Source: a virus
Reading direction: 5' to 3' (one strand)
Length of the DNA: 32,853 nucleotides
Virus record (IMG/VR): IMGVR_UViG_3300020180_000451
Span: 1-32,853 of that record
Shown: positions 1,543-5,455 of the stretch, in pieces
Numbering within the stretch: position 1 is the stretch's first letter
Layout of the letters: each line of letters starts with the position of its first letter
The notes under the pieces: model-generated
Told to the model about the DNA's origin: nothing
What the model saw: only the letters and a program-made list of their open reading frames with translations
Database searches by the model: none
Program-made: the position numbers and the translations under genes

Positions 1543-2305
1543 ATAAGAGCCTTTTATTGATAATGTCTATGTATTCCTCACTGATTTCTATTCCAATATA
1601 ATTCCTGTTGTTCTTCTTTGCCATCTTTAATGTAGTTCCTGAGCCAGCCATTGGGTCTAATACTATGTCTCCTTCGTTACTCCAAGAGAGTATATGGTCT
1701 TGCGCCAGTTTTTCTGGGAATATCGCAGGGTGTTCATAAGCAATTTTGTCGCTTGCGGAGTGTCCTTTTCCAACAAAGTACTCCCACACATTTGTTCGTC
1801 TACCGTATTTAGAATATCCACCTCTACTTTGTTTTAATAGTGTTCCGTCGTGTAATCTTTTTGTGCTATTATCGCCACCTCTTTCGTCTTTATTTTCTCT
1901 ATCTCTTATAAGGTTTATGGTTTTTGGCTTGCCTTTACTAAATACAAACATATACTCAAATGTTTGCCAGTATGTATTATTGTTACCAACTGCGCCTCGT
2001 GGAGGTTTTAGATATATCATCGTATCGTGCAGGTTAAACCCTATCTCCTTAAAATACAGAGCTTGCTTGAAAGATGTACCTGTTTCACTTCCTTTTATTG
2101 TGGCATCTCCTACTACCCATACAACAACACCTCCGTCTTTTGTAACTCTAAACAATTCTTTAGCAATTCCCTCAAAGTCAAAAGTATATCCATTGTATGT
2201 TCGTAGGTTATCGTAAGGAGGTGATGTTACAGTTAAATCAATAGAATTATCTTCTAGTGTTTTCATAACCTCTAAACAGTCTCCTTGTATAACATTATTT
2301 ATCAT
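1541..2305 (-). CDS. DNA methyltransferase, N4-cytosine/N6-adenine type (TSPPY)
   Basis: A 254-residue SAM-dependent DNA methylase. The catalytic motif IV is TSPPY at residues 27-31, and the SAM-binding motif I, DPMAGSGTT, is at 217-225. Catalytic motif before SAM motif is the permuted (beta-class) order. TSPPY is commonest in N4-cytosine enzymes but also occurs in N6-adenine enzymes, so the modified base is not certain. The region between (about 105-190) would hold target recognition. No restriction enzyme is adjacent, so this is probably an orphan phage methylase protecting against host restriction. The start overlaps the end of the upstream gene by 11 nt. It ends at repeat A1, which contains the terminator. 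Confidence 0.88.
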   Translation of the reverse strand: MINNVIQGDCLEVMKTLEDNSIDLTVTSPPYDNLRTYNGYTFDFEGIAKELFRVTKDGGVVVWVVGDATIKGSETGTSFKQALYFKEIGFNLHDTMIYLKPPRGAVGNNNTYWQTFEYMFVFSKGKPKTINLIRDRENKDERGGDNSTKRLHDGTLLKQSRGGYSKYGRRTNVWEYFVGKGHSASDKIAYEHPAIFPEKLAQDHILSWSNEGDIVLDPMAGSGTTLKMAKKNNRNYIGIEISEEYIDIINKRLL

Positions 2306-2672
2306 GTGTTCTACATCTTATACACACCTTTTCCCCCCTGGATATAAACGTCTTTAAACACCTAATACTTGTATTACGTTCGCACGTAACAAGGCCTATA
2401 CTTTTTATAACAGTTTTCTTTTCTACTGGAAGTTTTGAGACTTGTACGCGTGTTTTTTTTACTAATTGAGATGTATAGAAAGATTTTAGATTTTTCTGCC
2501 GTGTGAGTGCTTTTTTTAACTCCTGATGAATATGTTTAGAGTTTGGTGTGCTCCTTCTTGTAATTCTTTTTATTAAGTCCTCGGGATTTTCTAACCCCAG
2601 GCTTACTGCCATAGACATGTAGTGCATGTGTTTTCGCCTTCGTATTTCTGTTAAAGAAAGGGCTAGATTCAT
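2295..2672 (-). CDS. Basic protein of unknown function with a C-terminal cysteine cluster
   Basis: A 125-residue, strongly basic protein. The first 60 residues could contain a helix-turn-helix-like region (SLTEIRRRKHMHYMSMAVSLG). The C-terminus has four cysteines ending in CIRC, reminiscent of a zinc ribbon, though the first pair is not CxxC. I do not recognise the family; a DNA-binding or regulatory role is possible. Start choice: a TGCTATAAT extended -10 box sits 6 nt before the ATG, predicting a leaderless mRNA. Its end overlaps the start of the downstream methyltransferase by 11 nt, so the two form one transcription unit. Confidence 0.6.
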   Translation of the reverse strand: MNLALSLTEIRRRKHMHYMSMAVSLGLENPEDLIKRITRRSTPNSKHIHQELKKALTRQKNLKSFYTSQLVKKTRVQVSKLPVEKKTVIKSIGLVTCERNTSIRCLKTFISRGEKVCIRCRTHDK

Positions 2673-2678
2673 AGGTAT

Positions 2679-2687
2679 ATTATAGCA
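2679..2687 (-). promoter_or_regulatory. Extended -10 promoter, leaderless start for the gene at 2672
   Basis: On the minus strand the sequence reads TGC TATAAT ATACCT ATG: an extended -10 (TGn plus perfect TATAAT) exactly 6 nt from the start codon. Transcription would begin at the A of ATG. No clear -35 box is present, as is common for extended -10 promoters. Confidence 0.6.
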
Positions 2688-2759
2688 CCATGCGCTTAGT
2701 TTGTATTATAAAAAGCAAAAGACTCGTCGTAAGACAAGTCTGAAGCTTAAGTAAAAAAT

Positions 2760-2800
2760 AGAAAAGCACCGTGGAAACTGAACATTTGCGGTGTTTTTCT
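2760..2800. terminator. Long hairpin terminator
   Basis: A 12-bp stem with one wobble pair joins AGAAAAGCACCG (2760-2771) and CGGTGTTTTTCT (2789-2800) around a 17-nt loop. The A/T-rich stem ends give a T run on either strand. It lies in the 190-nt gap between the large methyltransferase (ending at 2864) and the promoter of the gene starting at 2672. It probably stops minus-strand read-through from the methyltransferase unit. Confidence 0.65.
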
Positions 2801-2822
2801 ATTTATAGTGTACCACATAGAA

Positions 2823-2874
2823 TATAAAAACCCCTCTGACACTTTGTCTCGGGGGTTTATTTGTTAGTTGCCGT
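2823..2874 (-). repeat. Repeat B copy 1, containing a terminator hairpin and the stop of the large methyltransferase
   Basis: These 52 bp are identical to 5456-5507. The core is a compound hairpin, CCCC tct GACA ctt TGTC tcg GGGG, with flanking AAA/TTT that reads as a rho-independent terminator. The repeat also covers the last two codons and stop (Gly-Asn-TAA) of the minus-strand gene. The copy at 5456 covers the same Gly-Asn-stop end of a different gene, so the repeat joins gene 3' ends to a shared terminator. B1 and B2 are direct repeats flanking the methyltransferase. Confidence 0.85.
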
Positions 2875-5338
2875 CGTCGGAGCCGGCAAAAACTAAACAC
2901 TCCCTTAATTGGGGGTGTTTTGCGTTTATCCGTGCTTCTGCTATCTTGCAATACTCTGGGTCAAGTTCTATTCCTATAAAATCAAAGCCTTCTAGTTTGC
3001 AAGCCTTACCTGTAGAGCCACTTCCCATGAAGGGGTCAAGTACTATTCCACCTTTTGGTGTTACAAGTCTTACTAGGTATTGCATGAGGGAGGTGGGTTT
3101 TATAGTCGGATGAGAATTAACAAATCCCTCCAGCCCATCATTCCTATCTTTCTTTGAAGCCTTCGGGAAGTATGCGAAGCTTGCGTGTTCTGACTTTTGT
3201 TCCGCCTTTTCCTTTGTGTCCAAGCTGGTGTTCTCGTCTATGGCAAGTAGCACAGAGCCAAATAATTGAGAGAGGTTTTGAGTAGTCGGGGTGGTGCCTA
3301 TGTTTTCCCATATCGCCACAATGGACGCAAGGTTCAGGATTGGGGTAGAGTTTTTGAAGTTTCCAATAAAGTCCTGAGTAGCTAGTAATTCCTCGTTCTT
3401 GAAAACCAAGCTCCTTATTTTTGCAAGTTCTTGAGCAATAGATGTTGCACATCTTTGACACTCTATTCCCACAGACTTTACATTTTGGACGAGTCGTTCG
3501 TCTAGCCAGTCCTCCACATTTAAGGGAGCAATATTTCCGATAGTTGCTCGGATAGTTATCAAAGCCAATTCCACATTGTTCGCATTTGTATGTTTGCATA
3601 CACTCATTGTATCATACTCTAGCGTTGGACTGCAAGTCTTAAAGAAGCGTGAGGCATTTCCTTCGCTTTTTTCAACACCAGGGCTTGTGACTTTTTTGCC
3701 ATTTCCTACAAAACCGCCAAATGTTCCACTTCCTGTTTTCCTTGCACCACTTGTTGAGTAAGGAAACAACCCTACCACCTCATCACTTCCGTCATGGATG
3801 AAGTTTGCGGGGAAGCGACCTGTTCTTTCTTCGTTAATTTCTTCTTTTTTACCCCATCCAGTTCCCTTACCTCCACCACCTCCGTTAATATGAATAGGCT
3901 CTGTCCCCACCCTTGAAGCGTCAATGTTAATCCCACCTGTTCCCCACTTCAATACATTCTCTGCGATAGTGCTTTCAGATAGTGGCTTGCGTGCTACTAC
4001 GATAGGTTCGTGAGCAGGTTTTAGAGCTGTACCCCAGCCTTCGTAGGGTGAGGTGCCTTTGGTGTCCTGTATCGTCAAGCTATTGTAACTACCGCCTTGC
4101 TTGTCATTCATTGTTCCATAAGCATCCCCACGAATATCAGGCACATTTCTTTCGCCTGTGACCTCCCTCTCATTCCCCTGCAACTTATCCACCGCCTTGC
4201 CTATGTTATGAGATTTGGGAAAGCCTGAATTACCTGTTACAAATATCTTTCCATTTCTACGAGCAACAAAAGCACCTGTTGATACAGTCGGACAAAAGAT
4301 TAGTCCTGTGTATTCAATTTTCGTAACTCTTGCCATTCGTGTAACTTGTGAACCCTGTTTGACGGAAACAACATCAGATTCTCCAACCGATTGTCCTCTG
4401 GGTTGTGGTTGATGTGATGAACTACCTCTACTCTTTCCAAGCAACGATTGAGAGATTGAGCCACTATCAGTCTGTGTTCCATAACATAGTTGTCTTTCCT
4501 TGCCATAGCTAAGTATTCTTTCGGACAACGTAAATACTTTATTCTGTATTTTCCGTAGTTTCCCTTTTTCCTGAAATAAGTTACTCCCCCTTTCCACGCA
4601 GGATTGTCCGCACCCCAATGAACCTTCTTTGCTCTGTGTTCTGGTAGGTTTGCTATTTCGCTCCCTATCTTTCCCCACTTCTTCCAGTCCTGCCCACGAT
4701 AATACCCGTTGCATTGTTTTGAGCAATACTTTGGATTGTAACTTGTGAACCCTATAAAAATCGTTTGACAATGTTGGCATAAGCTCCATTTCTGAGAGTT
4801 CCTCTGCCTGTACGAATGTAAGTTTTCCTTCTCGTTCAACAAGGCAACGATGGTTTCTACTGACGATTTGGTCTGTATAATCTGATTGTATTCTGTAGGC
4901 GGTATCTTTGTTGATTTGATACGACTGCCACCCTTCGGGTTCTTCCCATTTGTAAATGTCTTTTTGAATATCATATACCATAATCTTACCATACTTTGTA
5001 TCTTTATGGAAGCGTTCCCACCCATTACTTGTTAGGACTTCGGTATCTTCTGACAAACAACCATACACCCACATAATCTGGTCACGTATCTCAAACCCAG
5101 CATCTTCTATGTTTACTGCCATTCTGTGATAAGTTCTACTACCTGCAAAAGAAATTAAATGTCCACCTGGCTTTAATACTCGGATAGCTTCTTTCCATAG
5201 CTCTGTACTTGGTACATCGTAATCCCATTTCTTTCCCATAAAAGATAAGCCGTATGGCGGATCAGTTACGATTGAGTCCACACTGTTTTCTTCTAAAGTC
5301 TTTAATACTTCTAAGCTATCCCCATTTATTATTTGCAT
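2864..5338 (-). CDS. DNA methyltransferase with an intein and a second dual-coding insertion
   Basis: An 824-codon frame. Methylase motif IV is TDPPYG (residues 25-30) and SAM motif I is DPFMGSGSTG (768-777), the permuted beta-type order, probably N6-adenine or N4-cytosine. Residues 94-370 are an intein; removing it joins IMWVYG to SGFPKSHNIG, a junction typical of uninterrupted phage methylases. A second insertion lies roughly between ASRFFKT (562-568) and FAYFPKASKKDRN (721-733). It has no intein motifs but is completely covered by an out-of-frame HNH gene. The protein after splicing is 547 residues, still about 140 longer than expected because of that insertion. The last ~15 codons run through repeat A2, itself a terminator hairpin. 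An extended -10 lies 6 nt before the ATG. It is probably an orphan phage methylase. The catalytic core is confident; activity with the second insertion is uncertain. Confidence 0.88.
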   Translation of the reverse strand: MQIINGDSLEVLKTLEENSVDSIVTDPPYGLSFMGKKWDYDVPSTELWKEAIRVLKPGGHLISFAGSRTYHRMAVNIEDAGFEIRDQIMWVYGCLSEDTEVLTSNGWERFHKDTKYGKIMVYDIQKDIYKWEEPEGWQSYQINKDTAYRIQSDYTDQIVSRNHRCLVEREGKLTFVQAEELSEMELMPTLSNDFYRVHKLQSKVLLKTMQRVLSWAGLEEVGKDRERNSKPTRTQSKEGSLGCGQSCVERGSNLFQEKGKLRKIQNKVFTLSERILSYGKERQLCYGTQTDSGSISQSLLGKSRGSSSHQPQPRGQSVGESDVVSVKQGSQVTRMARVTKIEYTGLIFCPTVSTGAFVARRNGKIFVTGNSGFPKSHNIGKAVDKLQGNEREVTGERNVPDIRGDAYGTMNDKQGGSYNSLTIQDTKGTSPYEGWGTALKPAHEPIVVARKPLSESTIAENVLKWGTGGINIDASRVGTEPIHINGGGGGKGTGWGKKEEINEERTGRFPANFIHDGSDEVVGLFPYSTSGARKTGSGTFGGFVGNGKKVTSPGVEKSEGNASRFFKTCSPTLEYDTMSVCKHTNANNVELALITIRATIGNIAPLNVEDWLDERLVQNVKSVGIECQRCATSIAQELAKIRSLVFKNEELLATQDFIGNFKNSTPILNLASIVAIWENIGTTPTTQNLSQLFGSVLLAIDENTSLDTKEKAEQKSEHASFAYFPKASKKDRNDGLEGFVNSHPTIKPTSLMQYLVRLVTPKGGIVLDPFMGSGSTGKACKLEGFDFIGIELDPEYCKIAEARINAKHPQLRECLVFAGSDDGN
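2883..2926 (-). repeat. Repeat A copy 2, a terminator-like hairpin inside the methyltransferase 3' end
   Basis: These 44 bp are identical to A1 (1499-1542). Here the hairpin lies within the last codons of the large methyltransferase, encoding KHPQLRECLVF, whereas A1 lies just past the stop of the smaller methyltransferase. A1 and A2 are direct repeats bracketing the small methyltransferase and its upstream gene. A hairpin with a following T run (TTTAGTTTTTG) inside coding DNA could cause early termination of part of the transcripts. Confidence 0.8.
3144..3599 (-). CDS. HNH homing-type endonuclease nested out of frame in the methyltransferase gene
   Basis: A 151-residue protein in the +2 frame relative to the methyltransferase. 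Two N-terminal zinc knuckles are visible: CEQC (6-9) with CSLKC (24-28), and CKVC (40-43) with CSRTC (55-59). The HNH nuclease core follows: CVHC (91-94), HHPDYSKP (102-109) and CATCHRREH (116-124). Such HNH enzymes are free-standing or intron/intein-linked homing nucleases. It lies wholly inside the host gene, about 37 nt after the last clear host codon, and ends inside the resumed host motif KASKKDR. An ideally spaced extended -10 box precedes its ATG, suggesting independent leaderless expression. The cysteine pattern and HNH core make real coding very likely. Confidence 0.85.
   Translation of the reverse strand: MQTYKCEQCGIGFDNYPSNYRKYCSLKCGGLARRTTRPKCKVCGNRVSKMCNIYCSRTCKNKELGFQERGITSYSGLYWKLQKLYPNPEPCVHCGDMGKHRHHPDYSKPLSIIWLCATCHRREHQLGHKGKGGTKVRTRKLRILPEGFKER
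3606..3614 (-). promoter_or_regulatory. Internal extended -10 promoter for the nested HNH gene
   Basis: The minus strand reads TGA TACAAT GAGTGT ATG, an extended -10 with five of six consensus bases and exactly 6 nt before the HNH start codon. This matches the leaderless spacing of other promoters in this window, although it lies inside methyltransferase coding sequence. Confidence 0.5.
4229..5059 (-). other. Intein (Hint domain) in the methyltransferase
   Basis: Codons 94-370 (277 aa) of the methyltransferase. The N-terminal splice block starts with Cys94 (CLSEDTEVLTSNGW), block B is SRNHRCLVE (160-168), and the C-terminal blocks are GLIFCPTVSTGAFVARRNGK and IFVTGN, ending at Asn370. The next extein residue is Ser371, a valid +1 nucleophile, and a Gly-Asn end replaces the commoner His-Asn. 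The recognisable Hint part is about residues 94-193 plus 335-370, near 136 residues. The middle, about 194-335, has Ser/Gln/Gly-rich sequence without protein-like patterns in this frame and is the shadow of an HNH gene in the +1 frame. Excision should restore the host protein. Confidence 0.9.
4300..5025 (-). CDS. HNH homing endonuclease encoded out of frame within the intein
   Basis: An open frame of 241 codons in the +1 frame relative to the intein. The convincing part begins near residue 80: a zinc knuckle (CQHC at 83-86, CSKQC at 101-105) and a GxxNPAWKGG segment (138-147). The HNH_3-like core is YVMEHRL (180-186), VVHHIN (201-206), DNRLENL (211-217) and HKLH (226-229). Residues 1-75 look like the shadow of the intein N-half, and no ATG lies near residue 75-80. 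The true start could be a TTG, the distant ATG at 5025 or 4974, or a frameshift from the intein frame. The family is clear; how it is translated is not. Confidence 0.78.
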   Translation of the reverse strand: MGGNASIKIQSMVRLWYMIFKKTFTNGKNPKGGSRIKSTKIPPTEYNQIIQTKSSVETIVALLNEKENLHSYRQRNSQKWSLCQHCQTIFIGFTSYNPKYCSKQCNGYYRGQDWKKWGKIGSEIANLPEHRAKKVHWGADNPAWKGGVTYFRKKGNYGKYRIKYLRCPKEYLAMARKDNYVMEHRLIVAQSLNRCLERVEVVHHINHNPEDNRLENLMLFPSNRVHKLHEWQELRKLNTQD

Positions 5339-5344
5339 AAGTAT

Positions 5345-5353
5345 ATCATATCA
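5345..5353 (-). promoter_or_regulatory. Extended -10 promoter of the large methyltransferase (leaderless)
   Basis: The minus strand reads TGA TATGAT ATACTT ATG: an extended -10 (five of six consensus bases) 6 nt before the start codon. It predicts transcription starting at the ATG. Immediately upstream is a tandem direct repeat (5354-5377) that could bind a regulator. Confidence 0.55.
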
Positions 5354-5377
5354 CCATTCACCAAACCATTCACCAAG
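5354..5377. repeat. Two tandem 12-bp repeats abutting the methyltransferase promoter
   Basis: CCATTCACCAAA is followed directly by CCATTCACCAAG (minus strand: TTGGTGAATGG twice). One copy lies where a -35 box would be. A direct-repeat operator for a methylase regulator is possible; its function is inferred from position only. Confidence 0.45.
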
Positions 5378-5455
5378 TTTATTTCATGTGTGGATAACAG
5401 GGAGAATTCACGGAGAAAAAAGAAAATTATCCAGTAATTCTCCGATTTTGTGTAT

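Follow-up and report, generated by a model that had tools for sequence, protein, structure and literature searches.

Inteins are taught as single polypeptides in which a splicing domain and an endonuclease domain are combined. The canonical methylase intein of actinophages carries its LAGLIDADG endonuclease in frame and fused (PMC9957025), and inteins with an in-frame HNH endonuclease go back to Dalgaard et al. (1997), as that work is cited in PMC5050341. The ShiLan domain is an out-of-frame HNH within an insertion in a mycobacteriophage methylase, the insertion being neither an intein nor an intron (Arsenault, Gosselin, and Gogarten, 2025; PMC11855218), and Applejack gp54/55 is a hidden HNH insertion of this kind (PMC12613952). 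A preprint by the ShiLan authors ("Actinobacteriophage Inteins: ... Non-Canonical Architecture"; bioRxiv 10.1101/2025.01.02.630785) is cited by PMC11855218 for frequent overlapping frames and, judging by that citation, may describe out-of-frame endonucleases in inteins. Among the papers covered by our literature search, none reports an endonuclease encoded out of frame in an intein, and it is with this preprint that our results may overlap.

Herein we analyze a stretch of viral DNA of 32,853 nucleotides (the window; IMG/VR virus record IMGVR_UViG_3300020180_000451, positions 1 to 32,853), in which we propose that a methyltransferase gene very probably contains a mobile intein in which the homing endonuclease is encoded by a gene of its own that overlaps the intein. 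A sequence-only reading of the window had raised the possibility that such an arrangement is new, which may hold for an intein, for which we found no description, while out-of-frame HNH in phage methylases had already been published as ShiLan (PMC11855218).

The methyltransferase gene and its intein

The host gene is a DNA methyltransferase (MTase) open reading frame of 824 amino acids (2864–5338; N6_N4_Mtase, phrog_67), which has no internal stop, hosts two insertions and lies, like all of the window features described below, on the minus strand. Its exteins are encoded at 5060–5338 and 2864–4228, the latter including the second insertion, and between them an intein of 277 residues (4229–5059) runs in frame from Cys1 to TGN and is followed by Ser+1, as delimited by the sequence and a model of the Hint fold. 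The intein has a nucleophilic Cys1, a TxxH-like block B (TDQIVSRNH, 4850–4876), a terminal Asn and a Ser at +1, and these intein residues are invariant or almost so in 35 sequences. In the AlphaFold2 model the N-terminal part of Hint (intein residues 1–105, 4745–5059; pLDDT mostly above 85 up to residue 100) and the C-terminal part with blocks F/G ending in TGN (residues 237–277, 4229–4351; pLDDT 89–96 over residues 241–277) are joined by a linker (residues 106–236, 4352–4744) that is predicted to be disordered (pLDDT mostly below 50). This model matches inteins by Foldseek, the best being 6zgq (E 2.8e-5), the match to TIGR01445 is weak (14.8 bits, under the cut-off), and a single-sequence scan with P0004 gave no match. 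The Hint splice blocks that had been recognized in the MTase frame, from Cys94 to Asn370 with Ser371 at +1 in MTase numbering, are confirmed by this analysis, and the frame is open throughout.

The penultimate residue of the intein is Gly and not the usual His, and splicing is therefore not guaranteed. Two further residues, C256 in block F and T275 in block G (window numbering), are invariant and resemble those of class 3 inteins, yet the Cys1 of class 1 is present; the closest solved structure to the intein model is the class 3 AceL NrdHF intein.

The overlapping HNH gene

In the +1 frame relative to the intein the same DNA contains an HNH open reading frame at 4300–5025, within which the endonuclease gene itself likely begins at the ATG at 4974, at intein residue 28, and so extends over 4300–4974. 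The protein has a C4 zinc finger (CQHC ... CSKQC, 4711–4779) and an HNH_3 catalytic core (EHR ... VVHHINHNPEDNRLENL, 4357–4476) that matches Pfam HNH_3 at 1.8e-7 with 31.1 bits, against a curated cut-off of 24.8. HNH_3 is matched by all 35 family members at E ≤ 1, and the catalytic and zinc-binding residues, the latter being C66, C69, C84, and C88, are invariant across these 35 sequences. A zinc-knuckle HNH_3 nuclease had been read in this frame from the letters of the DNA, and the zinc finger and the match above the curated cut-off establish it, with the core lying about 50 bases from where it had been placed (4339–4419).

When the AlphaFold2 model of HNH was compared with solved structures by VIA-align, the best matches were the homing endonucleases I-HmuI (Z 5.8 over 74 residues) and I-PpoI (Z 4.2), of which only I-HmuI was clearly separated from the other structures. 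Foldseek with the same model gave no match at E ≤ 0.001, so the likeness to I-HmuI is one seen by VIA-align, and a sequence search of the PDB using HNH profiles gave no match. The helical N-terminal part of HNH had no Pfam match and no clear structural match.

The openness of both frames was compared with chance by reshuffling synonymous HNH codons 1000 times, such that the HNH protein was kept, and counting stops in the intein frame. Shuffles of the window averaged 14.5 intein-frame stops against 0 observed, and 0 of 1000 were open; the same result, 0 of 1000, was obtained in each of 38 distinct inteins. The third frame of the window DNA has 18 real stops. The earlier estimate that an intein frame open over ~140 HNH codons is unlikely by chance is borne out by the shuffles.

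Distribution of the family

A search with an HNH profile yielded 74 viral loci, and inteins at the same MTase site were collected with a profile of the intein C-terminus, which is blind to HNH. There are 84 distinct inteins at this site (83 besides that of the window), with copies also in bacterial assemblies. The HNH family is carried by 65 of the 84, which represent 59 clusters at 80% nucleotide identity, and its frame is offset by +1 in all 65 and in frame in none, whereas the endonuclease of a canonical intein is in frame with Hint. An out-of-frame HNH in an intein is a recurrent arrangement, not a one-off, and the proposal that the mobility nuclease of this intein is an overlapping +1-frame gene is supported by what proves to be a recurrent mobile family.

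The remaining 19 inteins include canonical ones with in-frame LAGLIDADG (LAGLIDADG_3 in the comparators L119, L155, and L159) as well as minimal inteins, of which L088 and L149 are without the HNH linker and L112 has only the N-terminal part of HNH left. The sequence-only reading had pointed to inteins without HNH as a check on its proposal, and no homologue with the same linker was found among them, as they are either these three minimal inteins or have an in-frame LAGLIDADG. Computation thus shows that loss of HNH leaves mini-inteins. Since homologues without HNH lack the linker or have in-frame LAGLIDADG, the linker derives from the HNH gene.

A further 19 distinct loci, termed class B, carry HNH genes of this family, likewise in the +1 frame of the MTase, inserted slightly downstream and with no Hint. 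One intein, L055, clusters with class B in the HNH tree, and it therefore seems that the nuclease has switched between intein and Hint-less contexts. The class-B-like HNH of L055 (MTase segment 2707–5431) starts only after Hint block B, its reading frame opening at intein residue 112, and this MTase also has a ShiLan-like insertion, flanked by the duplicated motifs EPVIVAQKP and EPIVLARKP. The MTase of L053 has, after INIDQTRI, an additional in-frame insertion besides the intein with the hidden HNH. In L003 (2995–4047) HNH is enlarged to ~350 residues with repeated zinc-finger units while the intein frame of 427 residues is still open, which suggests an expansion by unit duplications in multiples of three. 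One relative has been published, as the same intein and out-of-frame HNH are present at 1992–4346 of LR756508.1 (L005), a 484-kb uncultured phage whose genome is unannotated.

Selection on the two frames

Over the zinc-finger/HNH body omega is 0.26–0.40 in the HNH frame and 1.1–1.5 in the intein frame, values obtained by simple counting on non-independent pairs with few doubly synonymous sites. The HNH values stay in this range even for the closest pairs, and substitutions over the body concentrate at position 3 of the HNH codons. Measured against a stop-free null, the intein-frame similarity of class A equals that of a third-frame control within 0.2–0.3 Z. With intein-frame similarity no higher than the control and an omega of 1 or more, selection acts to maintain an open, in-phase linker whatever its residues, and the predicted disorder of the linker agrees with selection of this stop-free kind only. 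Its openness is due solely to the overlapping HNH gene, in which stops in the intein frame are avoided. Selection for a hydrophilic linker was also considered and rejected for class A, where there was no clear shift in hydropathy (−0.92 vs −0.94 in the null); the fraction of disorder-promoting residues was 0.682 vs 0.669 in the null for class A and showed a small excess in class B (0.711 vs 0.683).

Selection for both frames had been suggested from their openness. What stands is that HNH residues are constrained and that the intein frame is kept free of stops, but intein-frame residues over the HNH body are unconstrained. Conservation of one frame only had been named as the result that would speak against dual coding, and over the ~140-codon HNH body this is the outcome, such that dual coding at the level of residues is refuted there and is rejected as a description of the whole of HNH.

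The situation is different at Hint block B, as the HNH frame runs on upstream into the Hint domain and through this block, where the predicted helical N-terminal part of HNH (residues 21–60, 4795–4914) lies over it. When Hint codons were redrawn synonymously and stops counted in the +1 frame of block B, 62 HNH-bearing inteins had 3 stops against 101.6 expected (2 against 128 in an earlier version of the test) and 16 inteins without HNH had 19 against 25.4. Within block B SN/SS is 0.28–0.34 in the HNH frame and 0.55–0.71 in the unused frame, the HNH-frame values being 0.60–0.95 in that part of Hint which precedes the HNH start. Similarity in the HNH frame is above the null in block B, with a paired excess over the third frame of 1.26 Z vs 0.18 upstream, and AlphaFold2 gives the same DNA confident helices when read as HNH (pLDDT ~89–96) and confident strands when read as Hint. 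Computation thus shows that HNH residues are under purifying selection and that the HNH frame is kept open through block B. These results suggest, with moderate confidence, genuine dual coding over ~45 codons of this block; the dual constraint that had been placed in the HNH body is not found there, and it is in block B instead that both frames appear constrained. It is an even question whether these ~45 codons encode two structured parts, the catalytic block-B strands and the helical HNH N-terminus, the latter overprinted on Hint when the HNH start moved upstream, which would make mobility gene and splicing domain inseparable by point mutation there.

Start sites and mobility

An HNH-frame start codon is present at or before intein residue 52 in 59 of 61 inteins. 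Many have an ATG at residue 46, and the window and its close relatives L007 and L008 have one at residue 28 instead. Strong Shine-Dalgarno sequences are found in several inteins (L003, L009, L031, and L033), and 12 inteins, vs 5.8 expected, combine an ATG with 4 or more matching Shine-Dalgarno bases; the ATG at 4974 in the window has only a weak match, and the enrichment of start codons across the family is modest. We infer that HNH is made by internal initiation, and release of the endonuclease without intein splicing is plausible.

The correlation of distances is 0.45 between Hint and HNH and 0.25 between extein and Hint. Intein DNA is 85–88% identical between L087 and L167 (a Gallionella MAG) and 82–84% between L085 and L087, whereas flanks beyond 40 bases are 47–62% and 42–56% identical, respectively; L002 and L029 have the same pattern in their Hint parts, which are 78–80% identical, with 64% identity in the middle. 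Hint and HNH thus appear to have been transferred as one unit between diverged MTases in a pattern typical of homing, with identity limited to the intein and co-inheritance of Hint and HNH as the indirect signs of transfer between alleles.

A second hidden HNH in the same gene

By alignment with the insertion-free L002 and L005, the window MTase has a second in-frame insertion at ~3173–3640, after ASRFF and before YFPKASKKDRN, with no Hint motifs. A second hidden HNH reading frame with a zinc ribbon (HNH2, 3144–3599) lies there in the other shifted frame and matches the endonuclease phrog_2340 (1.2e-9). The insertion site is common to L177–L180, the fragment L181 shares its end, and L177, L179, and L180 have RFF/RFLY-like flanks on both sides of the insertion. 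Openness was rejected as evidence for HNH2, with 0.84 stops expected and a chance of 0.35 of being open. Its recurrence at one site suggests a ShiLan-like element, and 3173–3640 fits the ShiLan type, an insertion with an out-of-frame HNH and no splicing domain, unlike 4229–5059, which has Hint.

Discussion

We propose that ribosomes in the MTase frame would make the exteins, Hint, and the long disordered linker, and that Hint would splice itself out together with the linker. Ribosomes that initiate within the Hint-encoding DNA, in a frame shifted by one base, would make the zinc-finger HNH nuclease. HNH likely cuts MTase alleles that are free of the intein, after which the whole intein would be copied in by repair.

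Alternatively, programmed ribosomal frameshifting out of the MTase frame might yield HNH as part of an extein-Hint-HNH fusion and not as a free nuclease, and the HNH offset of always exactly +1 to the MTase and the absence of a good Shine-Dalgarno at many start sites would accord with this. We consider it unlikely given that the HNH-frame start precedes block B in all but two of the 61 inteins, that ATG codons, alone and with a Shine-Dalgarno, are above expectation, and that the HNH frame is unconstrained upstream of the start zone (intein residues 1–44). Phage HNH proteins have several roles (discussed in PMC11855218) and HNH could be expressed for one other than homing, such as defence or packaging; however, it travels with its Hint, identity is limited to the intein as in homing elements, and among solved structures it best matches two homing endonucleases, I-HmuI and I-PpoI, all of which makes such a role quite improbable.

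The low omega of HNH even in the closest pairs, the invariant catalytic and zinc-binding residues in 35 sequences and transfers that look recent argue against a decaying relic that is tolerated by the intein and yields no nuclease today, and in spite of the HNH-deleted inteins (L088, L112, and L149) we regard this as very improbable. Phage HNH genes commonly sit in introns, and the insertion might be a group I intron with an HNH reading frame that is removed at the RNA level, the open MTase frame being a coincidence. This is hardly credible, as a search of 2800–5400 gave no Rfam match at E ≤ 1, the Hint fold and splice residues are present, and openness is beyond chance.

With a mobile intein and an overlapping nuclease gene as the preferred reading, the genes for splicing and nuclease overlap and are entangled with each other, and this is so in dozens of divergent phage lineages as well as in contigs that were binned to bacteria of several phyla. 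The overlap would uncouple expression of the nuclease from splicing, and one can ask whether it makes the nuclease slower to be lost once fixed, such loss being part of the homing-cycle model. Annotation misses such out-of-frame nucleases, as in LR756508.1.

Comparison with known systems

The HNH core fold of the window is shared with the I-HmuI family, whose members are intron-encoded and differ in their N- and C-terminal DNA-binding parts. In the in-frame-HNH inteins of Dalgaard et al. (1997), as cited in PMC5050341, HNH and Hint are one polypeptide, whereas here they are two overlapping genes. The canonical methylase intein of actinophages (PMC9957025; L139) has the same kind of MTase site, a Hint domain, and an end of TGN followed by SGFPKS, but its LAGLIDADG is in frame while the window HNH is out of frame. 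The ShiLan domain resembles the window element in having an insertion that is open in the methylase frame and encodes a zinc-finger HNH in another frame, and in a disjunct distribution that suggests homing. One ShiLan-type HNH, gp64 of Mycobacterium phage Mantra (L006), is distantly related to the window HNH at 30% identity, with a different relative frame and no Hint. Closer to ShiLan are the second HNH of the window and the Hint-less class B loci. The ShiLan domain is without a splicing domain, at another site and in the third frame, whereas the window element is an intein with HNH in the second (+1) frame and, unlike ShiLan, with an HNH reading frame that reaches into the catalytic block of Hint.
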